Part shown: piece by piece, positions 1-40,815 of the stretch | Layout of the letters: each line of letters opens with the position of its first letter | How positions within the stretch are numbered: the stretch's first letter is position 1 | Assembly: GCF_002005205.3 (NCBI RefSeq) | Contig: NZ_CP019702.2 | Span: forward strand, 62,001 to 126,000 | Direction: 5' to 3' | Length of the DNA: 64,000 nt | DNA from: Rhizobium rhizogenes | Lineage (GTDB): Bacteria > Pseudomonadota > Alphaproteobacteria > Rhizobiales > Rhizobiaceae | The notes under the pieces: model-generated | What the model saw: the letters and a program-made list of their open reading frames with translations, nothing else | The model's database searches: none | Told to the model about the DNA's origin: nothing | Made by a program: the position numbers and the translations under genes

Positions 1-103
1 TGGCGTAGAGAGAGGGAAAGATCATCTTATAGGCAAGATCGCCCGTGGCGCCGAACACCACCAGCACGTCCGATCGCTGCCTGTCCGTGGCTGAGGTCTT
101 CAT
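1..103 (-). CDS. zwf: Glucose-6-phosphate 1-dehydrogenase, N-terminal part (runs off left edge)
   Basis: Only the first 34 codons lie in the window. They contain the NADP-binding glycine motif FGATGDLAYKM around residues 17-27, which is diagnostic for G6PD: the enzyme oxidises glucose 6-phosphate to 6-phosphogluconolactone in the cytoplasm and makes NADPH. The ATG at 103 overlaps the TGA of the upstream 6-phosphogluconate dehydrogenase gene (ATGA), so the two are translationally coupled. In Agrobacterium-type genomes zwf is more often met with pgl and edd, so this may be a second copy, which I infer from context only. Confidence 0.93.
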   Translation of the reverse strand, partial: MKTSATDRQRSDVLVVFGATGDLAYKMIFPSLYA

Positions 104-1104
104 TTGGCTTTCTCCAGATGGCCACCAAAGGCATTGCGCATGGCCGACAGCACCTTACCGGCGAATTCGGCCTCGCCGCGCGAGGAAAAACGCTCGAAAA
201 GGGCCGATGCCAAAACGGGGGCCGGCACGCCGGTTTCGACGGCCGCCTGCAGGGTCCAGCGTCCTTCACCGGAATCCGACACGCGCCCGCCATATTGATC
301 GAGGTTCGGGTCCTGTTTCAGGGCCTGCGCCGTGAGGTCAAGCAGCCACGAGCCGATGACCGAGCCGTGCCGCCAGACCTCCGTAACGGCGGGAAGATCA
401 ATATCGAACTGGTAATATTGCGGATGGGCGAGAGGGGCGGTTTCGGCGTCCGCCTCGCGGTGTTGTGTGCCCGCATTGGAGGCTTTCAGGATGTTGAGAC
501 CCTCCGCATAGGCGGCCATGACACCGTATTCGATGCCATTGTGGACCATCTTGACGAAATGCCCGGCTCCCGACGGGCCGCAATGCAGATATCCCATCGG
601 TGCCGTTCGGGTGACCGGGTCGGCGGCGATCCCCAGACCTGCGCCGGGCGCAAGGGAGGCGAAGATCGGGTCGAGACGCTGGACCGCAGCCACAGGCCCG
701 CCGATCATCAGGGAGTAACCGCGCTCCAGCCCCCAGACGCCACCGGATGTGCCGGTATCGATGAAATCGATGCTGCGAGGCGCAAATTCGGCGGCGAGAT
801 CGATCGCGTCGCGGTAAAATGAATTGCCGCCATCGATGATGGCATCGCCCGCCTGAAGTTTGCCCGCAAAGTCCCGCGCGATTTTCCGCGTGATCGCGGC
901 GGGCAGCATCAGCCACACGGCGCGTGGCGGTGAGAGGCTGGCGACGAGATCGTCCGGCGAGGTTGCGCCCGTTGCGCCTTCTTTCACCAGCGCCGCGACA
1001 TTGTCGGGGTTGACGTCGAAAACCACGCAATCATGCCCGTGTTTCAAAAGGCGGCGCACCATGTTTGCGCCCATCCGCCCAAGCCCAACCATTCCAATCT
1101 GCAT
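100..1104 (-). CDS. gnd: 6-phosphogluconate dehydrogenase (decarboxylating), short GndA-type
   Basis: A cytoplasmic enzyme that converts 6-phosphogluconate to ribulose 5-phosphate and CO2. The chosen start gives a protein of about 334 residues beginning with the dinucleotide motif IGMVGLGRMGANM, and AGGAGTG sits just upstream of this ATG. The substrate motifs DGGNSFYRD and GPSGAGHFVKMVHNGIEYG are present. Long E. coli-type Gnd is about 470 residues; this length fits the short family, many of which prefer NAD, but cofactor choice is inferred. It lies 36 bases after the glucoamylase gene and overlaps zwf by ATGA, so glucan hydrolysis and the oxidative pentose phosphate route appear co-expressed. 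A few codons upstream are open, but the ribosome site favours position 1104. Confidence 0.93.
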   Translation of the reverse strand: MQIGMVGLGRMGANMVRRLLKHGHDCVVFDVNPDNVAALVKEGATGATSPDDLVASLSPPRAVWLMLPAAITRKIARDFAGKLQAGDAIIDGGNSFYRDAIDLAAEFAPRSIDFIDTGTSGGVWGLERGYSLMIGGPVAAVQRLDPIFASLAPGAGLGIAADPVTRTAPMGYLHCGPSGAGHFVKMVHNGIEYGVMAAYAEGLNILKASNAGTQHREADAETAPLAHPQYYQFDIDLPAVTEVWRHGSVIGSWLLDLTAQALKQDPNLDQYGGRVSDSGEGRWTLQAAVETGVPAPVLASALFERFSSRGEAEFAGKVLSAMRNAFGGHLEKAK

Positions 1105-1140
1105 CCTGACACTCCTTTTGTGCAACTCGGTATTGCTGGT

Positions 1141-3543
1141 TCATTCACCGAGGCGAACGGTAAAGTCCTCGTTTTCCCACACTCCAGCATCTCGCCAGTA
1201 GAAGGTGAACACAATCGTGCCGCCGGCCGCCAGTTGCTGCACGGGCAAGTCCGCAAAATGCGTGCCGAGACCGGAGGCCGTCGTGCTTGTATCTGTGGTT
1301 GTCGCCCAGCCGTCAGCGCTCCAGTGCACGATGGCATTATCCGCTAGGTCAAGCCGCAGAACCTTGCCGGCGGGCATGGCTGATATCTTGTTGTTGAAGC
1401 ACCAGATTCGAAGATGCGACGGCGTCTTGTTGCGGATGTAGCGCTCCACACCCTGCGGCGGCATGTCGAAAACGGAACCATCGGCAAGCGAACGCAGAAG
1501 CTTGATATGTTCTGCATGCGCCCAGACCAGCGGCATTGCGCTGCCCGACGGGTGGCCATAGAACAGCTCCCTGTCGAGACGATCGGGTTGATCCCAGACC
1601 TGCTCGGGGAAAAGGCCGCTCTGCCCCGCCGATTTTTCCATGGTCGTCAGCAAGGCTTCCGCCGCCCCGCGTCTACCCGCAGCAAGTTCGTAATGGGCAC
1701 GCTCGCCGGTCAGAAGGGGCCATGGCCTGCCCTGACCCGTGCCGTCAAATGCTGTTCCATCAGCATGCTCACCATATCCGTCGCCCGTGTACCTGTACCA
1801 GACCGGCCCCTGCGGCAGGTCGGCGCGCAGGCAATGATCGATCGCCTTGACCGTTGCGACAATATGGGGATCGTCCGGTGCGCGCAGGCCGAAGCGGACC
1901 AGCGCGAGTGCATCAGGGCTGATGACATCGCTTGTTGGCAGGAAAGCGCGATCCGGTGTCTGGTTGAGGATGGGCGTCATGCCCGAGGGCTGAACAGAAT
2001 CGGTGGCACCAGGAGAGGCGATGCGAACATAATGGCCCGAAATACCAAGTTGCGCGCACAGGGTCTGGTCACCGGCAAATGTCCACCTTTCAATCTGCTC
2101 ATTCCAGCAATCGGCTGTCTGCCGCAGATGCGTGGCTTCGGCCGCATCGCCCTCCATATCCAGCAGATCAGCGGCGGCAAGCAGCGCGGCGATCTCGACG
2201 GCAAGCGTGAACGGGCTATAGCCTGCATCCTCCTCCCACCTGTCCTCGCCGGTCGTTGGGCCGTTTGCCAGAATATAGGCCGCAGCGCTGCGGATCATCG
2301 GCATATAATCCGCCCTTGCAGCGTGATCGAGGTGGCCGTGCCGATGCAGGATATCCGCAAGCAGGATTGGAAAGGCGCATTCGTCCATCTGAACGCCCGG
2401 CCAATAGGGCTTGCCATCCAGCCAGAGATTTTGCGGCCACCGCCCCGAGGGCTGCTGCACCTGGCGCAGATAATCAAGGATGGCCAAAGCCTCATCGTGA
2501 TCGCCGGCCGCCAGAAACCCGCCAGCGGCTTCCACCAAATCTCGCGGCCATATTAGATGATATCCGCCAAGATCGTCATCGCCCTTGGAAGCTCCCCATG
2601 GGATCGATAGACTGGCCACGACAGCTCCGGGCCGGTCTGCGGCACGATGCGCGGCAAGCACAGCGGTCGAGACGCGATAGGAATTAACGCCGTGATGGGT
2701 ATCGCGGTCGAGGGGGCCAAGACTGTCCTGCCAGCTACGCCAGTTGTCGATATAGGCATCGTGCGTGCGTCTGAAGCCGGACTTCAGACTTGCGACAGCA
2801 CAGGCTGCAGCTTCATATTCAGTCTGGCCGAAACCGAGCGCCAAGGTCGCCGTATCGTGGTTTTCGCTAAAATCGATTTCCGCAGCCAGCGAAACATTGC
2901 CGTCATCCGCCCGCTGGTACTCCTCAATAAGGCGTCCGTGCCGGCGCAATTGTTGCCAGCCATCGGAAACGCCAACAAAACCCGCACTTGCAGCGCGCCA
3001 GGGACAATTGCAGACCAGAGCGAGATATCGTGAGCGGCCGACCGCAAACAGGACCCGACGCCCCTCATAATCCCCTATCCAGGCGGAGTTGAGATTACCG
3101 GCATTGACCAGATGCGGCGCCAGAAGGACGCTTACACGATAATCCCCTTTCTTACCGTTCAGTGGGAAGAAGGAGACATGCTGAAGAACACAGGCCCGCG
3201 CCGGATCGGTGATGACCTGTTTTTCGATCCGGTAGGCTCCATCTGTCGCCGTATTGGTGATGTGGAACGCGGGAATTCCACTCTCGAAAGGGCAGGTAAC
3301 GGAACTACAGTCTCGTTTCTCTTCCGAAAAATATCCGTCGTCTCTGGTGACCACAAGACCGAGATCGCGGGTACAGGCACTATCGATCCGCGGGTAATAG
3401 ACCTCGTTGAGGATGCCGTGGCTGAGCGTAAACCAGATCGGTGAATTTTTCGACAGCGCGGTTCCCACGCCATTCTTGGCGCTCGACGTCCAGCGTGCGT
3501 CAATGCCGGGTGCGCCGGGTGCGAAATCAAGTGCGGCACGCAT
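1141..3543 (-). CDS. GH15 glucan 1,4-alpha-glucosidase (glucoamylase / glucodextranase type)
   Basis: An 800-residue exo-acting glucosidase expected to release glucose from alpha-glucans. The N-terminal third is an all-beta domain typical of prokaryotic glucoamylases (SHGILNEVYYPRID near residue 43). The (alpha/alpha)6 catalytic domain starts near residue 300 with IPWGASKGDDDLGGYHLIW, followed by QNLWLDGKPYWPGVQMDECA, which carries the family's acidic residue. No signal peptide is visible, so it probably acts in the cytoplasm on glycogen or imported oligosaccharide. It is the first gene of an operon with gnd and zwf, suggesting that released glucose is routed to NADPH production. The ribosome site before the ATG at 3543 is weak (AGAGG about 13 bases upstream), so the exact start is less sure. 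Confidence 0.9.
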   Translation of the reverse strand: MRAALDFAPGAPGIDARWTSSAKNGVGTALSKNSPIWFTLSHGILNEVYYPRIDSACTRDLGLVVTRDDGYFSEEKRDCSSVTCPFESGIPAFHITNTATDGAYRIEKQVITDPARACVLQHVSFFPLNGKKGDYRVSVLLAPHLVNAGNLNSAWIGDYEGRRVLFAVGRSRYLALVCNCPWRAASAGFVGVSDGWQQLRRHGRLIEEYQRADDGNVSLAAEIDFSENHDTATLALGFGQTEYEAAACAVASLKSGFRRTHDAYIDNWRSWQDSLGPLDRDTHHGVNSYRVSTAVLAAHRAADRPGAVVASLSIPWGASKGDDDLGGYHLIWPRDLVEAAGGFLAAGDHDEALAILDYLRQVQQPSGRWPQNLWLDGKPYWPGVQMDECAFPILLADILHRHGHLDHAARADYMPMIRSAAAYILANGPTTGEDRWEEDAGYSPFTLAVEIAALLAAADLLDMEGDAAEATHLRQTADCWNEQIERWTFAGDQTLCAQLGISGHYVRIASPGATDSVQPSGMTPILNQTPDRAFLPTSDVISPDALALVRFGLRAPDDPHIVATVKAIDHCLRADLPQGPVWYRYTGDGYGEHADGTAFDGTGQGRPWPLLTGERAHYELAAGRRGAAEALLTTMEKSAGQSGLFPEQVWDQPDRLDRELFYGHPSGSAMPLVWAHAEHIKLLRSLADGSVFDMPPQGVERYIRNKTPSHLRIWCFNNKISAMPAGKVLRLDLADNAIVHWSADGWATTTDTSTTASGLGTHFADLPVQQLAAGGTIVFTFYWRDAGVWENEDFTVRLGE

Positions 3544-3791
3544 CGTTACATGCCTCTGGCAGGGAGATGATGAAGGCGAAAGTGAATGTGTTGTCGTATT
3601 GAAAACTCATGGCGGAGATCTCGACCTTGAAGGAAGGGTCTTTCCGGGATGAGACGGAGACGGGATGCGGTTCCCGTCTTTAATCTCAAATCCGATACGG
3701 CCTCGTCATTAAGCTAGGTATTCGCGAAGGGGTGCACAACTAAAGATTTGGTAATTGAGCGTGTGGCGAATTCCTTCTTATCTGTGGCTCG

Positions 3792-4055
3792 CTATATGGC
3801 CCGGACGCACATACCCTGCTTTAGTGCTAGCGAAAATGACAGCCTCTCCGAAACCCTTACTGCCGAACCGAGCTTGGATTGGCGTATCTGATGCGCTTCC
3901 CCATCGGTAAAATAGAACCCGGATGTCGGCCCGAACACCCATTGGAGGGCATTGCCAGCCGGCAATCCGATTTCATCCAATTTGTCGAGTTTACCGCGTT
4001 CTTCGAGGATCGCCATCGTGGTGGTGAGTTCGTTTAAATTCATGAGGCTTAGCAA
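3792..4055 (-). CDS. Small protein of unknown function
   Basis: An 87-codon frame opening with TTG at 4055; an internal ATG at 4043 gives a shorter protein starting MNLNELTTTM. I do not recognise the family. The sequence is soluble, with no signal peptide or membrane segment, and contains LPAGNALQWVFGPTSGFYF in the middle. It lies directly after the IS110-derived chimeric frame and may itself be the end of a gene broken by that insertion. The composition is plausible for a real protein but there is no strong ribosome site. Confidence 0.35.
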   Translation of the reverse strand: MLSLMNLNELTTTMAILEERGKLDKLDEIGLPAGNALQWVFGPTSGFYFTDGEAHQIRQSKLGSAVRVSERLSFSLALKQGMCVRAI

Positions 4056-33310: not shown

Positions 33311-33637
33311 ATGAACTGGAACTATCTGCAACAGCACTGGGATTGGGCGGGCCACATCGTCGAAGCCCTGTTTATGGCCGCGATTGTCGCCATGATCGTC
33401 CGGATTTTTCTTTCATGGCGCATATCGTGGATCGTCGGCCTGGCCTTCGCTGCCGGACATTTTCACGGCCGCGAAAAAAGAGACTACGAAGTGTCGGTCC
33501 ACATGAAACCGCCCCATCTGGAAGGGTATTACTTCTGGCGCTGGTCGTGGGACGGGGCGACGGATTTCTGGCCCACCGCGATCATCTGTTTTGCGCTTAT
33601 TTTCGTCGTTGTGAAAAATTCCGCTGGACCTCGATGA
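33311..33637 (+). CDS. Small membrane protein of unknown function
   Basis: A 108-residue protein with two or three membrane helices (AALFMAAIVAMIVRIFLSW-like segment at about 18-37, a second at 39-50 and PTAIICFALIFVVVKN near the end). Between them lies a charged, Trp/Tyr-rich segment (HFHGREKRDYEVSVHMKPP). GGGGAGAG directly precedes the ATG. No family recognised. The length and Trp-rich start (MNWNYLQQHWDWAGH) recall small phage- or plasmid-borne inner-membrane proteins. It is divergent from rkpA and begins a plus-strand block of unknown genes. Confidence 0.65.
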   Translation: MNWNYLQQHWDWAGHIVEALFMAAIVAMIVRIFLSWRISWIVGLAFAAGHFHGREKRDYEVSVHMKPPHLEGYYFWRWSWDGATDFWPTAIICFALIFVVVKNSAGPR

Positions 33638-33768
33638 GTTGCGTTCCTTTTTAGCGAGCACGCCTCAAGAATAAGAATTCATAGACTAAAATCGAAAGTT
33701 GTATCGTTCCAGCATTTATTGCACGGTGGGCAGAATTATCTCATTGCTGATTTTTGGCCGGGGAGCGG

Positions 33769-34932
33769 ATGGTACGCGAAGAGATATGCCGTTCTTTTGC
33801 CTGTGCGATTGTCGTGGCGTCGGTCGTGGTTACGATATTCGCCGGAACAGGTTTTGCACAGGATAACAATGGCGCCGTTCAAAAAGCCGTCCCGGCGACG
33901 AGAACATTCGATTTCTCAGCGCCCGCCCTCAATCTTGAAGGCACGGTTCCCCAGGATGCTACGGTCGAAACCGTACCAATGAGCCCGACGGAACCTGGCA
34001 CAATCGGAAATTTGAAGGTCATTGGAAAAATCAGTTCAGGTTCATCCGAGCCGAAAATCGAGACGACCTTTGTCGGCTACGATCTGCAGGCACCCTCGGC
34101 GGCGTTCCGGATTTGCACGTACCAGGCAGACACTGCCGGATACACAACACGCGCCTCAAAGGTCGCATCGGACCTGACAGAAGCCATGCTTCTGGGTACC
34201 AGGGATGAAAACGGAAAACCACATAGCGCGCTCATCAGCTATTGCTTTTCACGCGGAAAGCAGGTGCTGGGTATTAATTTCATTGCAGGTGTCAGCAACG
34301 CGGCGGATGCCTACGCCGCTTATGATCTGGTAGTTCGAGCTGACAAATACGCTGCTGCGTTTATTGGCAGTCTTTCATGGGAAAACGGCGAGGAATCGAG
34401 CTTTGGACAGGAGCTGCAATCGGTTCCTGTTCGGATAGGCAACCAGCAAGTCACACTCCACATCCCGAACCAGTGGGATATCCCGATCAACGATTTTCAC
34501 GGCCCTCTGCCGGCCGAGCTGCATATGATCAGGCGCAAGGGTGGAAAAGATGTCGGTCTGGTGTGGCTCTTCGTTCAGGACATGAAGAAGAAACCCGACC
34601 TCGAAATGACCGGAGCGACAATCGTGAAGGATTACTTTGTCAGGCAGACACCCGACACACATCCTCCGGTACTGGTATCGAGCGAAGAGGACGCCATATT
34701 GGCGGAACAGGGAATTCCCGCACGCACCTTCCGGTTTTCAGTGGAAAACAAAAATGGTCAGGACAGCGGCGAAATCGAGGCGACCGCCATATGGCGGAAT
34801 GGTCGCCTGCATGTCCTCACGCTCTGGTCAGCTTGGTCGTCCGTTGCCGATGAAAACACGTTCTTCTCTCGTCTTCCGGGTCTTACTGTCTACGATATCG
34901 TGCGGCAGGCCATGGTAACGACGCAGCAGTAA
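33769..34932 (+). CDS. Exported protein of unknown function
   Basis: A protein of about 387 residues with a clear signal peptide (CAIVVASVVVTIFAGTGFAQ, cleavage after FAQ near residue 31). The mature part is soluble and appears to hold two similar-size halves, the second starting near LQSVPVRIGNQQVTLHIPN. I recognise no domain. The ATG at 33769 with GGGGAG just upstream is preferred over a TTG at 33754. It is probably periplasmic. It precedes two DKNYY-repeat genes in the same direction, 74 bases upstream of the first, and could be co-transcribed with them. Confidence 0.7.
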   Translation: MVREEICRSFACAIVVASVVVTIFAGTGFAQDNNGAVQKAVPATRTFDFSAPALNLEGTVPQDATVETVPMSPTEPGTIGNLKVIGKISSGSSEPKIETTFVGYDLQAPSAAFRICTYQADTAGYTTRASKVASDLTEAMLLGTRDENGKPHSALISYCFSRGKQVLGINFIAGVSNAADAYAAYDLVVRADKYAAAFIGSLSWENGEESSFGQELQSVPVRIGNQQVTLHIPNQWDIPINDFHGPLPAELHMIRRKGGKDVGLVWLFVQDMKKKPDLEMTGATIVKDYFVRQTPDTHPPVLVSSEEDAILAEQGIPARTFRFSVENKNGQDSGEIEATAIWRNGRLHVLTLWSAWSSVADENTFFSRLPGLTVYDIVRQAMVTTQQ

Positions 34933-35005
34933 GATTCTGCGCCCCGGTTTGCGGGCAGGCAACCTGCGGCGCTCGGAGAATGTCGATAGAGGGAGTGCGG
35001 ACGCA

Positions 35006-36151
35006 TTGACTGAGCGATTTGATCATCAGGTTGGGTCCACTTCCGTACCCGTCATTCCCTATGACACATTCGAAGCCGCCGCTCTGTTCCTTGCAACGGG
35101 GCGCTCGCCGGAAGAAGTGCTGCCGAAACTCGGCCTGACAGCCACGGAATGGGATAGGCTGCATGACGCCTACAAGTGGTTTCCCTATTCCCTGGGGGAC
35201 GATTCCAGACGACATTATTTCGGCGGGCTTGACGATGGCGCGATCTGCAGGCTTGTCCTGCCGCCGCGATGGCAGATGGAAGGCGGGGACAAGCCCGATC
35301 TACGCTCGACAGCGTTTGTTCGCGACACCGTGCGCCACAATCCGTATATCGGACCGTTTATCGATTGCGGCTGGCCCTTGACATGGATCGCATCGCACCC
35401 CGAGGCGACGCTGTGCTCTTATACACATGATGGTCGCACCGTATATTTCAACGGCGAGCCGCTGGCTGACCGTAACGGTAACCGGATCGGAGTGGATGTT
35501 GCCAGCTTCAAGGCGGTCGGAGGACGCTGGTTATACGACAAGGGCCATGTGTATGGCCAAGGCAGGTATGGCGTATATCACAGGGCCTACTGGTTTGTGC
35601 TCGAGGGGGCGGATGCCGCGACGTTCGAAGCGCTGAACCTGCGTTATGCCCGCGATAAAAATCAGGCCTATTACATTACCGGCAAGACACTCCGAACCAG
35701 AAGTCCCGGGGCTTTCGAGATCATACCCGATGTCAGGCTGAACTATCGTGACAACAGCTGCGACCTCCTTCACGATGACAGCCACACCGCACGGGACCGT
35801 GAGGCTGTCTACTTCTACGGTGCCCGCCTAAGGGGCGCAAAGCCCGAAGGGTTTCGACACCTGGGGCATGGCTACGCGAAGAACAATGAAAAGGTCTGGT
35901 ATCTCGACGAAAAGAAACTCATCCAAGGCGCAGACGCGGCGACCTTCACAGTACCCGGCCCTGGAGAACCTGATGTGAAGGGCCTCACAAGCGGCCATTT
36001 CGTCACCGACCGCCATCGTCCGTATGTTCGCGGTGAAGCGCGTGACCCGATCGAGTGGTTCGAGGCCTGGCGATCGTTCTTCGAGGCGAGACCGGATATC
36101 AGGGACTGGTGGTGGCACAAGATCGAGAAGACCTTTGCAGCTTCAAGATGA
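35006..36151 (+). CDS. DKNYY-repeat family protein (shorter paralog)
   Basis: A protein of about 381 residues built from beta-rich repeats of the DKNYY family: RYARDKNQAYYITG, GYAKNNEKVWYLDEKK and YDKGHVYGQG, each followed by a phrase such as GADAATFEAL. The family's function is unknown; members are frequent in polymorphic-toxin and immunity neighbourhoods, which is why a protective role is sometimes guessed. No signal peptide is visible, so it is probably cytoplasmic. TTG at 35006 with GGGAG upstream is the likeliest start; the frame is open to 34949. It is clearly paralogous to the larger protein at 36506-38449 over its whole length (shared IGPF, GHVYGQG and terminal WWH motifs), so the pair arose by duplication. 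Confidence 0.72.
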   Translation: MTERFDHQVGSTSVPVIPYDTFEAAALFLATGRSPEEVLPKLGLTATEWDRLHDAYKWFPYSLGDDSRRHYFGGLDDGAICRLVLPPRWQMEGGDKPDLRSTAFVRDTVRHNPYIGPFIDCGWPLTWIASHPEATLCSYTHDGRTVYFNGEPLADRNGNRIGVDVASFKAVGGRWLYDKGHVYGQGRYGVYHRAYWFVLEGADAATFEALNLRYARDKNQAYYITGKTLRTRSPGAFEIIPDVRLNYRDNSCDLLHDDSHTARDREAVYFYGARLRGAKPEGFRHLGHGYAKNNEKVWYLDEKKLIQGADAATFTVPGPGEPDVKGLTSGHFVTDRHRPYVRGEARDPIEWFEAWRSFFEARPDIRDWWWHKIEKTFAASR

Positions 36152-36247
36152 GTTCGGCGGATCAGCAGGAACCTTCCGCAATGGGGGACAATCAGCATCT
36201 CAGGATGGCTTTCGGATTCGACCAGACGAACGCAGGAATGTGCATCA

Positions 36248-36439
36248 ATGAAAATCAATATGACCAAGAGGGAAGCGATGTTCCTGTTTTTGCCCTTGTC
36301 AGCGCTGGCGACCACGGCCGTTTCCTGGTTGGCTGGCGTCTACAGCTTCTCCTGGTTTGTAGGTATTTTCGCTATTTTCGTTGGTGGGAGAGTGTTCATA
36401 CGCAACCACGTAACCATTACCGACAGAGACGAAAAATAA
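36248..36439 (+). CDS. Small two-helix membrane protein
   Basis: A 63-residue protein with two hydrophobic helices (FLFLPLSALATTAVSWLAG and FSWFVGIFAIFVGGRVFI) and a charged tail ending TDRDEK. CAGGAA lies eight bases before the ATG. It sits between the two DKNYY paralogs, in the same direction, 96 bases after the first. No family recognised. A membrane partner or toxin-like role is possible but unsupported. Confidence 0.55.
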   Translation: MKINMTKREAMFLFLPLSALATTAVSWLAGVYSFSWFVGIFAIFVGGRVFIRNHVTITDRDEK

Positions 36440-36505
36440 GGCAAGATAGACAGGCGGACTGGCTGGGAACCATGGCCGGCATTGACACCGTAGATCGGAG
36501 CGGAC

Positions 36506-38449
36506 TTGAGCGGAATGAAGCTGACTGAACTTTTTCCCCTGCCCTATGCCCATTGGTATGCGGCCACTCTTTTTGCCGAAGCTGGATATGCTGCGTCGCA
36601 GATATTCGATCGTCTCAGCATCGACCCCCCGCGCTGGCAACGGTCCAGAGAGCGCTATGGCCAGCTCCATTACGCCAATACAAGTTGGGTCGCGGCTGCG
36701 TTCGGGCGGGACGGGCTTCCCGAGCCCGAACAGGATCGGGCGCTTTTCCAGCATCTGACAGCGAATGACGGTATCGGCCAGCCCGTAACAGAACCCTTCG
36801 GCATGCGCAGGGAGCTTGCGGCTTTGCGGCGCGCAGTCGAAGCCAATCCCCGTATCGGTCCCTTCGCAAATGTCGACTGGATCGCGCATTATATCGGAGA
36901 AAGACGCTTCCCGACCATCCGCTATGTCCACAATGGCTATCAGGTCCATGTCGACGGCGCACCGATCCGCGACCGCAAGGGCGTCCCGCTGGCCGGGATC
37001 GACCCCTTCACCTTTCGACAGCTCGGTGACCGCTGGTTTTGCGACGACGGACATGTCTACGGCCAGGGCGAGACGCCAACGAAGCTCTTCTGGTTCATAG
37101 CCCGTGGCGCCGATCCGGACAGCTTCACCGTACTGAACCAACGTTATGGCGCCGACAGGGCCGCCGGTTACTACATTACCAACCTGCGCCTTCCCACCGA
37201 GGAGCCGGGTACATTCGGGATCGTCGGTTATTATTACGGCAGGGGCCAGAAACCGGGTATCCATATCGAAGAGAGCCACTACGCAAAAGACAGCCGCAAG
37301 GTCTATGCCTACGGCGTCGCGATCGAAGGCGCGGATGCAGCCAGTTTTCATTCCATCGGCGACGAAGGCAGATATTTCGCCGACAGCAAGCATATCTATT
37401 GGCAGAAGAGCCCCGTTCCCGATGCGGACCGCGAGAGCTTTGTCTGCGCATCAGAAGCGGGCCAATATCGCGCTTACGACAAAGAGAGGCCCTATTATGC
37501 CGGGCAACCTCAATCCGTTTCGGCTGAATTCGAGCCCTGGAGCGATTATTTCGAGGCGCATCTGGAGATCACCGACAGCTGGTGGCATCGGGAACAGGCG
37601 CGGAGAACAGCAAGCCCGGCCGTCGTGAATGAGCCGGTTCCGGTCGGCGGCCCCTATTATAGCGACGGAAGCAGGATACTGGTGAGGCCACAACGCCCGC
37701 AGGACAGCGAATGGGTATCGCTCGATCATTTCGACCACGACAGTTTTCGACATATTATCGATGTATTCGGACGGGATCGACATGGTCTTCGCTATTTCTC
37801 ACCCGGCCTCGAACGCTATGGGCATGAGCCTGTGAAGGGAGCCGACGCGGCAAGCTTCGAAAAGCTCGACGGACCCTGGTTCAAGGACAAGCGGCAGGCC
37901 TATTACATTGATAGCGACGCCCCGATGCCGGAGCTTGCCGTCGTCAAAGCCGATATGGCGAGCTTCGAGGTGCTGGGCGACGCCTATGCCCGCGATGCGA
38001 AAGGGCTGATCGTTGAAGGCGTGCGCAAGCGCGGCATCGATAATCCCGCCGCCGTGGAAGCACTCGGCCGCTCTTTCGCCCGAATGGGCGACATTCTGCT
38101 TTATCGCGGCAAGCCCGTCACCAGACCCGGCAAGGTCGACCCTGCCACGGCGCGCGGTGTCCATGACCAGCTTCTGATCGACGCAAAGGGCGAGATGCTG
38201 TTCGGCGGGAGCTACCGCAAGATGATTCCGGGAATTGACCCCGCCACGTTTAATTTCCTCAACCGTGTGTTCGCCGTGGATATGCGCCATCTTTACGCAA
38301 TGACCGATACGGGACTGCAGCTGATGCCGGATATCAATCCCAGCGAAGTCCAGGCTGCCGGCCTCTACGCTATCCGGGTCGGCAACACGAAGTTCCATAT
38401 TTCCGGCGGCACCATGCGGCAGTCTCCATTTGAGGAGATGAGCGGATAA
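36506..38449 (+). CDS. DKNYY-repeat family protein (longer paralog)
   Basis: A 647-residue protein. Residues 1-375 align by eye with the protein at 35006-36151 (IGPFANVDWIAHYIG, DDGHVYGQG, GYYITNLRLPTEEPGTFGI, terminal DSWWHREQ), and about 270 further residues add more repeats (GPWFKDKRQAYYIDSD, GDAYARDAKGLIVEG, FLNRVFAVDMRHLYAMTD). Modules of 45-60 residues alternate a GADxASF phrase with a Tyr-rich strand pair, which predicts a beta-propeller or solenoid fold. GGAG five bases before TTG at 36506 favours that start; an ATG at 36515 is also possible. No signal peptide. The function is unknown. Confidence 0.72.
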   Translation: MSGMKLTELFPLPYAHWYAATLFAEAGYAASQIFDRLSIDPPRWQRSRERYGQLHYANTSWVAAAFGRDGLPEPEQDRALFQHLTANDGIGQPVTEPFGMRRELAALRRAVEANPRIGPFANVDWIAHYIGERRFPTIRYVHNGYQVHVDGAPIRDRKGVPLAGIDPFTFRQLGDRWFCDDGHVYGQGETPTKLFWFIARGADPDSFTVLNQRYGADRAAGYYITNLRLPTEEPGTFGIVGYYYGRGQKPGIHIEESHYAKDSRKVYAYGVAIEGADAASFHSIGDEGRYFADSKHIYWQKSPVPDADRESFVCASEAGQYRAYDKERPYYAGQPQSVSAEFEPWSDYFEAHLEITDSWWHREQARRTASPAVVNEPVPVGGPYYSDGSRILVRPQRPQDSEWVSLDHFDHDSFRHIIDVFGRDRHGLRYFSPGLERYGHEPVKGADAASFEKLDGPWFKDKRQAYYIDSDAPMPELAVVKADMASFEVLGDAYARDAKGLIVEGVRKRGIDNPAAVEALGRSFARMGDILLYRGKPVTRPGKVDPATARGVHDQLLIDAKGEMLFGGSYRKMIPGIDPATFNFLNRVFAVDMRHLYAMTDTGLQLMPDINPSEVQAAGLYAIRVGNTKFHISGGTMRQSPFEEMSG

Positions 38450-38489
38450 ATGGTCGCCACCCTATCGACCGATATTCCATGGCAGCCCT

Positions 38490-39419
38490 TCAATAATGGA
38501 GGGCTGCGCGTGTAGGCGCTATAGCCGTAAAGCGTGCGGCGCTGAAATCGTGAAGGCACCGGAGCACGTCTTGCAACTTGTCGGCGCTAAGTCGAAAATC
38601 GCTCTTTGCAAGCCGGTAGAGACAACCACCTCGCGCAAACACCAGATCACCACCGTCCCACTCGGCCCAATCCGTTTCCGGCAGGTCAAGGAGCAGCATT
38701 CCGTCCCGATCAACCACACGGTAATCCAGCCCGTACCACGCCTTCTGGCTGCGACCGATCGAGTGGAGAATCATCTGGAGCCGCCGGCCATTCGCGCCTA
38801 CCTTTTCGAGAACACGTGATTTGCTGAAGCTGTAAAGGGCCGAGGCATTCAAACCATTGGTCTGACCCTCGCCATGTTCAGCCACCCGCCAGCCTTCGCG
38901 TTCACGCATATAGCCGTTGACGGGCTCGTCCTCTCCCCGGCCCGACCATTCTCCACACGGTTTGACGTGCATCCCCCGCTTCAGCCTGAATCCTTTGGCC
39001 AGCTGGAAGCTGGCATCATCGCCGATTGAATGATTGAGAAGCAGCGTTTTCTCGCTCTCGAAAATACCGCCGCCGCCCCAGGCGTCCCCCTTCGGCCACA
39101 GCGCCAGGGCCGTGAAAAATGGAGGCTTCGATATGGCCGTCCAGCTGCCGTATGGCGCGCGGTTGGTGGCAGCGAAATAGACCAGCAGCTCACCAGATGG
39201 AGAAAGATCGCAACGTCTTTCGTAAATCCGCCCTTTCAACCATTGCCCATGTTCAAAGGTATCGTTGCGCAGGTCCCAACGAATGAGCTGCACCTGACGG
39301 CTTGGCCCACGACGAAATATGACACCTGTTCTCGCTGACCGCGCCAGGATCGCATATAGTCTCGGCGCAGCGGGCACGCCGGCTTTCTCCGGAGCGGAAC
39401 TACCTGTCTCGACGGTCAA
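38490..39419 (-). CDS. Conserved hypothetical protein (beta-rich)
   Basis: A 309-residue soluble protein. The N-terminal half has FRRGPSRQVQLIRWDLRND and GRIYERRCDLSPSGELLVYF, a pattern I have seen in uncharacterised bacterial proteins without a named domain. Repeated Trp/Gly strands suggest a beta-propeller-like fold. It has no signal peptide or membrane segment and converges with the DKNYY gene, their stops being only 40 bases apart. The first 25 codons are weakly protein-like, so the true start may be an internal codon. It may be functionally tied to the DKNYY proteins, but that is only proximity. Confidence 0.6.
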   Translation of the reverse strand: MTVETGSSAPEKAGVPAAPRLYAILARSARTGVIFRRGPSRQVQLIRWDLRNDTFEHGQWLKGRIYERRCDLSPSGELLVYFAATNRAPYGSWTAISKPPFFTALALWPKGDAWGGGGIFESEKTLLLNHSIGDDASFQLAKGFRLKRGMHVKPCGEWSGRGEDEPVNGYMREREGWRVAEHGEGQTNGLNASALYSFSKSRVLEKVGANGRRLQMILHSIGRSQKAWYGLDYRVVDRDGMLLLDLPETDWAEWDGGDLVFARGGCLYRLAKSDFRLSADKLQDVLRCLHDFSAARFTAIAPTRAALHY

Positions 39420-39563
39420 TGGAGCTGCACCCTTCCGACAATATTTCTGCCATTATAACTGCCTCGACACCGCCGTCGACCGCCGATGCCTCGACTGGAC
39501 CCACAACTTCATCACGCCGGAAGCGGAATAGACAACGCTCTTATCCGAAACCTTGAATGCGGC

Positions 39564-39869
39564 TCAATTCAGCAGCACCAGGACCGTTCCTGCACAAAGG
39601 GAAAACAATCCGAGAGAAAGGCTGGGGATGATCAGCGCCGCACGTTGATGGCCTCGGATTTTCATCGCGATCGCGAGAATTTGCGCGACAATAAGCACAG
39701 GTATGCCTGCTCTGTAGGAGATGTCATAAAGCCCGACGATCAGATTGCGTCGGGCCGGGTCGGAAGGCCATTCCGAAAAACCAAGCGCCAGAGGCGACAA
39801 ATACCAGACTGCGCCGAGGATAAAGGCAACAACCGTGGTAGCGAAGAGGAATACTGTCACCGACCTCAT
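39564..39869 (-). CDS. Small membrane protein of unknown function
   Basis: A 101-residue protein with three hydrophobic segments (FATTVVAFILGAVWYLSP, GIPVLIVAQILAIAM, and LIIPSLSLGLFSLCAGTVLV). AGGACA lies just before the ATG, and the ATG overlaps the TGA of the exported-protein gene upstream (ATGA), so the two are co-translated. No family recognised. It may anchor or partner the exported protein. Confidence 0.65.
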   Translation of the reverse strand: MRSVTVFLFATTVVAFILGAVWYLSPLALGFSEWPSDPARRNLIVGLYDISYRAGIPVLIVAQILAIAMKIRGHQRAALIIPSLSLGLFSLCAGTVLVLLN

Positions 39870-40462
39870 TTGCTGTCCTGAATAAAGGCTTCAATCGCGG
39901 CTTCCGACAACCCGATAATGCGGCCGGCAGCAAATCGCCGCACGGAAAAGGCGCTTTCGTCACGGTTTTCGAAAGCCAGATCAAAAGTAGAAGAAAATAT
40001 CCGTGCCCATCCCTCATCATACACGGTACCACCGACGTGGATTATGCTCATTGATGGCCAGTCGACCTGTTGTCGGGTCTCCGGGTCAATGACCATGGCA
40101 CTGCCGACGCGAATCTCCCGTGTGACAAACATCCCAGACGCATGGCCTGAAACGGGTTCCAGCCTGAAACTATAAGTGCCGCCCTCGGGATAGACGAATT
40201 CTACGATCGACGCCGGTGAAGAAACTTTAACCCGGAATTCTTTTTCGTAAGCGTTCGCACTGCCTTCGGTCTCCAGCAAGCGCCAGTCGCGGCCGGAAAT
40301 CGGCCGGGCGGCAACGATAACTGCACCACCCTTTGTAAGCATCGGCTCGTCGACAGCGATACGCAAACGGGTCGATAGCTGCTGTTCGCCCGCATGGCCA
40401 ATTGTGCTCAAGGCCGTAATCCCAGCAACCAAATGAGCCAGGCCGATAAATACCTTAGACAA
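39866..40462 (-). CDS. Exported protein of unknown function (TTG start)
   Basis: A protein of about 198 residues. The frame is open to 40783, but GGGAGG four to five bases before a TTG at 40462 gives a product opening with a good signal peptide (SKVFIGLAHLVAGITALSTI, cleavage after GHA), so I place the start there. The mature domain is beta-rich (LRIAVDEPMLTKGGAVIVAA, then GGTYSFRLEPVSGHASGMFV) and ends in an acidic helix. No domain recognised. It is coupled to a small membrane protein and is divergent from the curlin genes, so an envelope role near the curlin system is possible. Confidence 0.6.
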   Translation of the reverse strand: MSKVFIGLAHLVAGITALSTIGHAGEQQLSTRLRIAVDEPMLTKGGAVIVAARPISGRDWRLLETEGSANAYEKEFRVKVSSPASIVEFVYPEGGTYSFRLEPVSGHASGMFVTREIRVGSAMVIDPETRQQVDWPSMSIIHVGGTVYDEGWARIFSSTFDLAFENRDESAFSVRRFAAGRIIGLSEAAIEAFIQDSK

Positions 40463-40815
40463 TAAACCTCCCGGTCCCGTCAAAAGTGATCTAAGTCCGC
40501 TGCCATATAATCGTCGATCATTGACACCGCAGCAAGCCTGAAGAATTTCCCGGCTCTTGCTGTGATCACAATGACAGACTGGTTGCGGCCAAAGGATCAT
40601 GCATGGCATTCCGGCTGCTCTCTCACGCTGATTAAGGACGGCCGAAAACAATCGACTGAACGTCACCTCAAACTGGCCCCCTGAAAACCACGACGCAGGC
40701 GCCGTTCCCCCGCCAATGAACCCCGACTGAATAATCTCTTCAGCTTCCGTTCCAGCGGAACCGTCTAGAACAAAGACGTTCAACCGCGGTCTTATCCGCC
40801 TGAGGAGACACAGTC
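40463..40815. promoter_or_regulatory. Divergent intergenic region upstream of the curlin cluster
   Basis: About 350 bases between an exported-protein gene (minus) and the first curlin gene (plus). It must hold both promoters. The minus-strand reading frame runs through it but lacks signals, and the deduced sequence is not protein-like. I see no clear palindrome or standard promoter pair. Confidence 0.4.

Follow-up and report, generated by a model that had tools for sequence, protein, structure and literature searches.

Eight genes beside the curlin locus of Rhizobium rhizogenes as a probable mosaic of orphan interbacterial-toxin immunity genes

Eight adjacent genes without an obvious function lie beside the curlin locus of Rhizobium rhizogenes (assembly GCF_002005205.3, contig NZ_CP019702.2), and the question that they raise is whether they work together as one undescribed system, as the initial annotation had proposed. 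We analysed a window of 64 kb (62001-126000), 62 kb from one end of the 2.28-Mb contig, in a genome of three contigs; the replicon carrying the window is presumably the second large replicon, which we take to be the linear chromosome of agrobacteria. Compared with relatives, the eight genes (referred to here as g1 to g8) are four pieces and not one system: g1, a g2-g5-g6 cassette, a g3-g4 insertion and g8-g7. The region from 33.7 to 40.5 kb of the window is probably a mosaic of orphan immunity genes against interbacterial toxins, with the protection itself being predicted. The genes, in window positions, are as follows.

g1, 33311..33637, + strand: membrane protein of 108 amino acids (aa); judged a flanking segment outside the immunity array
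g2, 33769..34932, + strand: 387 aa, predicted exported, with two tandem PsbP/Mog1-like domains modelled; candidate periplasmic immunity protein
g3, 35006..36151, + strand: short DKNYY protein, the open reading frame (ORF) being open from 34949; within the 1.5-kb insertion between g2 and g5
g4, 36248..36439, + strand: 63-aa membrane ORF in the same insertion as g3; weakest gene call
g5, 36515..38449, + strand: 644-aa DKNYY protein, the ORF being open from 36506; candidate immunity partner of g2
g6, 38490..39419, - strand: 309-aa soluble protein, convergent with g5; its start may be at 39293
g7, 39564..39869, - strand: 101-aa membrane protein, its start overlapping the g8 stop by 4 bp
g8, 39866..40462, - strand: 198 aa, predicted exported; putative orphan type VI secretion system (T6SS) immunity gene of the putative effector family T347

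All eight are plausible coding genes at these coordinates. As described initially, g3 and g5 are DKNYY paralogues, matching PF13644 (expectation values, E, of 5.7e-16 and 6.8e-26; 59.8 and 92.0 bits, respectively, above the 25-bit gathering cut-off). Hydropathy gave one N-terminal hydrophobic stretch each in g2 and g8, two stretches each in g1 and g4, and three in g7. No Pfam family was matched above cut-off by the six proteins other than g3 and g5, no NCBIfam family by any of the eight, and none of the eight matched the PADLOC anti-phage defence models at E up to 0.01. The ratio of nonsynonymous to synonymous substitution rates (dN/dS), computed for g2, g3, g5, g6 and g8 against one or two relatives each, was 0.13-0.23 for g2, g5, g6 and g8 and, with dS saturated, 0.07 for g3, indicating purifying selection on all five.

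The division into pieces appeared on comparison with other genomes of the genus (G000 is the source genome, G followed by another number a relative's genome, and L with a number a fetched locus). G018, G035 and G004 carry g2, g5 and g6 together, without g3 and g4 and without g7 and g8 alongside. DNA similarity of 80-84% was restricted to 33683-34942 and 36432-39369 for G004 and G035, and to 33687-34725 and 36432-39369 for G018. Since the similarity is confined to two stretches, g3-g4 is read as about 1.5 kb of DNA inserted between g2 and g5; in these three genomes g7-g8 does not lie beside g6. Genus searches covered 39 genomes for g2 and g6, and 37 by protein and all 39 by DNA for g5. Four of the 39 (G000, G004, G018 and G035) have g6, and the same four are the only ones with full-length g5 and with g2 above 80% identity, the G018 match covering residues 28-320 of g2. 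Fragments of g5 were found in G012, G028 and G018. G017 and G021 gave g3 relatives or weak DKNYY matches; paralogues of g2 lie in G034, G016 and G018, with a weak one in G010. The scattered occurrence that had been set against a single system was therefore half true: g2 (above 80%), g5 and g6 co-occur in four genomes, whereas g1, g3 and g8 each have a distribution of their own. As for the two co-translated sets claimed initially, g8 and g7 do overlap by 4 bp, whereas g2-g3-g4-g5 run along one strand, separated by 16-96 bp and without overlaps.

This part of the genome varies, and in G000, G018 and G035 it is close to a contig end. In G018, the cassette (L045 8669-16784, compared with window 1-3819 and 33687-39368) directly adjoins DNA 91% identical to window 1-3819. 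Hence about 3.8-33.6 kb of the window, some 30 kb with g1 at its edge and with a 2480-aa ORF that we take, by recognition of its sequence, to be polyketide-synthase-like, separates the two in R. rhizogenes and not in G018.

The strongest case for immunity is g8, whose relatives occur in 8 of the 39 genus genomes, G000 counted. In G012 (L053) and G023 (L079), the order is VgrG, a g8 homologue (57% over 171 aa in each) and T347, the last two genes overlapping by 4 bp, followed by PAAR-like and DUF4123 proteins or their relatives and then by further cargo. (T347, T149, T154, T321, T405, T182 and M92 are labels coined in this analysis.) We found no Pfam or NCBIfam match for T347, and its place in the operon marks it as a putative effector. 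The G000 and G004 operons have T154/T321 at the equivalent position, likewise with a 4-bp overlap, and a Rhodobacteraceae plasmid shows the same layout, with a small gene overlapping a T347 relative (38% identity); no similarity was detected for that small gene. ClpV, Hcp and VgrG are presumed identities, by recognition of their sequences and, for VgrG, additionally by the annotation of L109; Tae4, Rap1a, PAAR, DUF4123, DUF2169 and Lipase_3 were identified by Pfam. Genes outside annotated records were called with a simple caller of our own, which misses some genes.

Elsewhere the operon has lost its middle. In G018, G004, pAtLMG305 and pAt2788a, what remains of T347 after g8 is its opening 32-42 codons, with one to three in-frame stops. 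Past this remnant the DNA resumes with T149, which closes the armed operon. The deleted segment corresponds to L053 6106-9272 (about 3.17 kb), that is, the rest of T347, PAAR, DUF4123 and T182. The four loci (L078 9023, L081 9372, L117 9683 and L118 9496) place the junction at the same point to within a few bases, and its occurrence in two chromosomal or draft-contig loci as well as two plasmid loci suggests the spread of a disarmed cargo operon. The g8 copies of G018 and G004 lie apart from their g5 locus. In G019, g8 (matched from residue 22) and a 92-aa gene stand, between the same flanks, where G000 has a cargo operon with a 94%-identical VgrG, and pAt1D1460 has a Rap1a/Tai immunity gene two genes after g8.

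Intact T347 was found in only 2 of the 39 genus genomes, and G000 had no T347 match at E 1e-3. The g8 copy of the window overlaps g7 and has no T347 remnant after it; no g7 relatives were found in the plasmid collection. Across these loci g8 outlives its neighbour T347. Given its place after vgrG, the T347 remnants and the lack of a T347 match in G000, g8 looks like an orphan T6SS immunity gene, with T347 as its likely cognate effector by position. A separate recurring element is M92, a 92-aa membrane protein found both next to orphan immunity genes and where vgrG cargo operons end (L046, L047, L049, L053, L076, L078, L080, L081, L095, L107, L108, L116, L117 and L118).

The second candidate is the g2-g5 pair. 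The g5 protein is rare: at E 1e-20 it was found in 1 of 396 other genomes of the order sample and in none of 384 others of the class sample. A protein search, in which only the 7994 candidates with the most common words were scored, yielded 69 homologues. Named sources of these and of the fetched loci include Agrobacterium, Shinella, Brucella/Ochrobactrum, Achromobacter and Rhodobacteraceae; some distant homologues come from Burkholderia. We examined 11 full-length g5 loci outside the window (G004, G018, G035, G125, L095, L096, L097, L098, L107, L108 and L109); the L098 copy is split by a frameshift, and L095 and L107 represent the same region from two strains of Shinella. In 9 of the 11, g2 is directly upstream of g5 (the exceptions are L096 and G125; the g2 of Shinella L095 was found by tblastn only), and in the plasmid collection g2 adjoins full-length g5, by coordinates, in all six records, L107, L108 and L109 included.

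The flanks fetched around g5 measured 0.7 to 14 kb (8.5 kb on the right side of L045). VgrG was found within the flank in 6 of the 11 loci (G004, G018, G035, L097, L098 and L109), the first three being one orthologous locus, and Rap1a immunity genes are neighbours in two more, L108 and L096; neither VgrG nor Rap1a genes were found in the flanks of L095/L107 and G125. The Yoonia operon facing g2-g5 (L097) encodes VgrG, a Lipase_3 protein and DUF2169, with a presumed DUF4150; a lipase gene beside g2 was noted at this locus. Homologues of g2 without full g5 lie on a Sinorhizobium plasmid, beside SMI1/KNR4, DUF1963 and YcxB genes, and in Agrobacterium vitis (next to a g3 relative), a Devosia plasmid, G034 and G016, and no VgrG was found in these five loci. 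No VgrG was found within the 64-kb window either. TssB was matched in 6 of the 9 g5-bearing genomes, namely G000, G004, G018, G035, G816 (Achromobacter) and G818 (the frameshifted copy). The remaining three, G125, G815 (Shinella) and G817 (Yoonia), gave no match, the completeness of G815-G818 not being given. Overall, 14 of 17 genomes had a TssB match, the other eight having been picked for g8, g5 fragments, a g3 relative or g2 paralogues. One side observation concerns Yoonia ponticola (L097, G817), which has two VgrG operons, yet no TssB match in the genome; possibly the assembly is incomplete or these are orphan vgrG islands.

The predicted structure of g2 has tandem PsbP/Mog1 domains, one of which matches the fold of the T6SS immunity proteins TplEi/Tli4 (PDB 5h7y, 5h7z and 4r1d), Tsi3 (4n80) and PA3488 (7wdk), at 7-10% identity over aligned residues. 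The last of these is the immunity protein in a complex with PldA. Structure comparison also showed the fold to be widespread and shared with unrelated proteins. Pfam holds Tli4 models, and no Tli4-named Pfam family was matched by 25 g2 relatives at E up to 0.1; a single UniRef name among the 61 g2 homologues points to Tli4. The g5 model (predicted local distance difference test score 90) has a helical N-terminus followed by beta repeats, with no convincing fold match in the PDB. By context and modelled fold, g2-g5 can reasonably be regarded as a recurrent pair of candidate immunity genes.

Could the pair instead hold a toxin? If g5 were a toxin carried as T6SS cargo and g2 the periplasmic protein that neutralises it, the immunity gene would come first as in Tai-Tae operons, an order known in these operons from Rap1a before Tae4. 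The occurrence of g2 without g5, as with immunity genes, and the 4-bp overlap of g2 and g5 in three Rhodobacterales loci would fit. However, in the six VgrG-linked loci g5 is oriented against the VgrG operon, in a strand run of its own without an adaptor or PAAR; g5 also occurs without g2 (L096 and L100) and in three genomes without a TssB match, and it has no enzyme-like fold match. We consider this effector-immunity arrangement unlikely. It is also rather unlikely that g2, g5 and g6 have nothing to do with toxins and serve the envelope or metabolism as accessory genes, carried along by chance in a variable chromosome-end region that doubles as a T6SS cargo hot spot. The variability of the region and its nearness to contig ends in G000, G018 and G035 agree with such passengers, as do the wide spread of the g2 fold and the lack of VgrG neighbours around distant g6 and DKNYY relatives and around g2 without g5. 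The separate VgrG contexts in Rhodobacterales, and the Rap1a, SMI1/KNR4 or MafI neighbours on unrelated replicons, speak against it.

That all eight genes co-operate in a single undescribed system, the claim with which we started, is very improbable. The genes are adjacent and mostly on one strand in each half; however, relatives divide the block into four separately distributed pieces, and G018, G035 and G004, which keep g2-g5-g6 alone, contradict it. Of the functions suggested initially, envelope protection fits only in the predicted export of g2 and g8. Gene position gives good support to toxin immunity for g8 and reasonable support for g2-g5.

Under the preferred reading of a mosaic of orphan immunity genes, g8 would be a periplasmic immunity protein derived from a T6SS vgrG cargo operon. 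In other lineages T347, PAAR and the adaptor would have been deleted and the end genes g8 and T149 retained; in the source genome g8 would persist together with g7. The second recurrent cassette would consist of g2, exported with a tandem PsbP fold as in Tli4/TplEi, and g5, a cytosolic DKNYY repeat protein, with g6 attached in Agrobacterium. Each protein may sequester or block one toxin delivered by a neighbour, g8 and g2 in the periplasm and g5 in the cytoplasm, and the array would let the strain survive weapons of its relatives that are absent from its own arsenal. Any part taken by g3, g4, g6 and g7 is conjectural. Perhaps g2-g5 is a mobile two-protein cassette of Rhizobiales and Rhodobacterales (g5 also in Achromobacter), carried as well by strains without their own T6SS, in which an exported PsbP-fold inhibitor and a large cytosolic DKNYY repeat protein shield both compartments against one class of injected toxin; we hold this to be possible, somewhat short of an even chance. 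If true, it would be the first function for the DKNYY family, for which the literature searched gave no report of a functional role, the sole mention met being unrelated.

The other genes fit the picture to different degrees. The g1 gene is a rhizobial gene that stands by itself. Its relatives (67-80% nucleotide identity) lie elsewhere in the genus, among rhizobial neighbours shared by the three loci read, and on ten plasmid-collection records; because of these relatives, and because homology to G018 begins only at 33687, g1 was judged to lie outside the array. The g3 protein is 74% identical to that of an A. vitis gene adjoining a g2 paralogue and is absent between g2 and g5 in G004, G018 and G035. 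The closest named g6 homologue is from Agrobacterium, and close relatives are on four plasmid records, all Rhizobium, two of which were fetched. In one, MafI immunity genes and a CdiA-like hemagglutinin-repeat gene neighbour g6, and in the other it lies beside SMI1/KNR4, MafI and a gene annotated 'colicin'. On the Rhizobium plasmid locus L120 (290-10256), a 7.9-kb hemagglutinin-repeat gene is followed by small genes, the g6 homologue and a MafI immunity gene. The wider g6 family is large (2832 matches), and no immunity-type neighbours were seen by eye in the ten other genomes of the order that have a g6 match. As immunity genes side by side, the case is strong for g8, by context and fold for g2-g5, and mixed for g6.

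Beyond the block, the curlin locus does adjoin it, as stated initially, with curlin genes (PF07012 twice) and a CsgH gene; on the capsule side, the neighbours identified were one SDR and one aminotransferase, besides the polyketide-synthase-like ORF. At window 40708-40815, a stretch of about 95-105 bp preceding the first curlin gene recurs with 84-96% identity in 12 of 38 other genus genomes, and further upstream four different genes were found across the five loci read. The curli promoter region is thus conserved here, while the junction next to it varies.

At agrobacterial vgrG loci, both orphaned immunity genes and clusters of them have already been described (PMC8546570). The likeness extends to the same bacterial group, the same kind of vgrG cargo operon and recombination that leaves immunity genes without effectors; unlike those loci, the array here has no VgrG in 64 kb, and DKNYY is absent from the main text of that paper. 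In the 3′ immunity-gene arrays of Vibrio cholerae (PMC5361080), effectors are displaced or lost and immunity genes are kept, so that immunity genes persist after effector loss as here. Those arrays trail a T6SS cluster, whereas here relatives show an internal deletion with a short effector remnant and the array lies away from VgrG. In Bacteroidales, orphan immunity genes, part of an acquired defence between bacteria, are reported to protect against T6SS (PMC10470768, PMC12247911); they belong to a different phylum and, apparently, to other protein families. The locus is of a known kind, built partly from undescribed families; in it g8 is a well-documented orphan and g2-g5 a plausible new cassette.

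Orphan immunity genes help to decide which bacteria survive contact with toxin-injecting neighbours, and many of them are unnamed. The four loci in which g8 and T149 flank deleted cargo suggest a rule by which to search for more, namely a short effector remnant at a fixed junction, and g2-g5 gives DKNYY proteins a first proposed role that can be put to the test.

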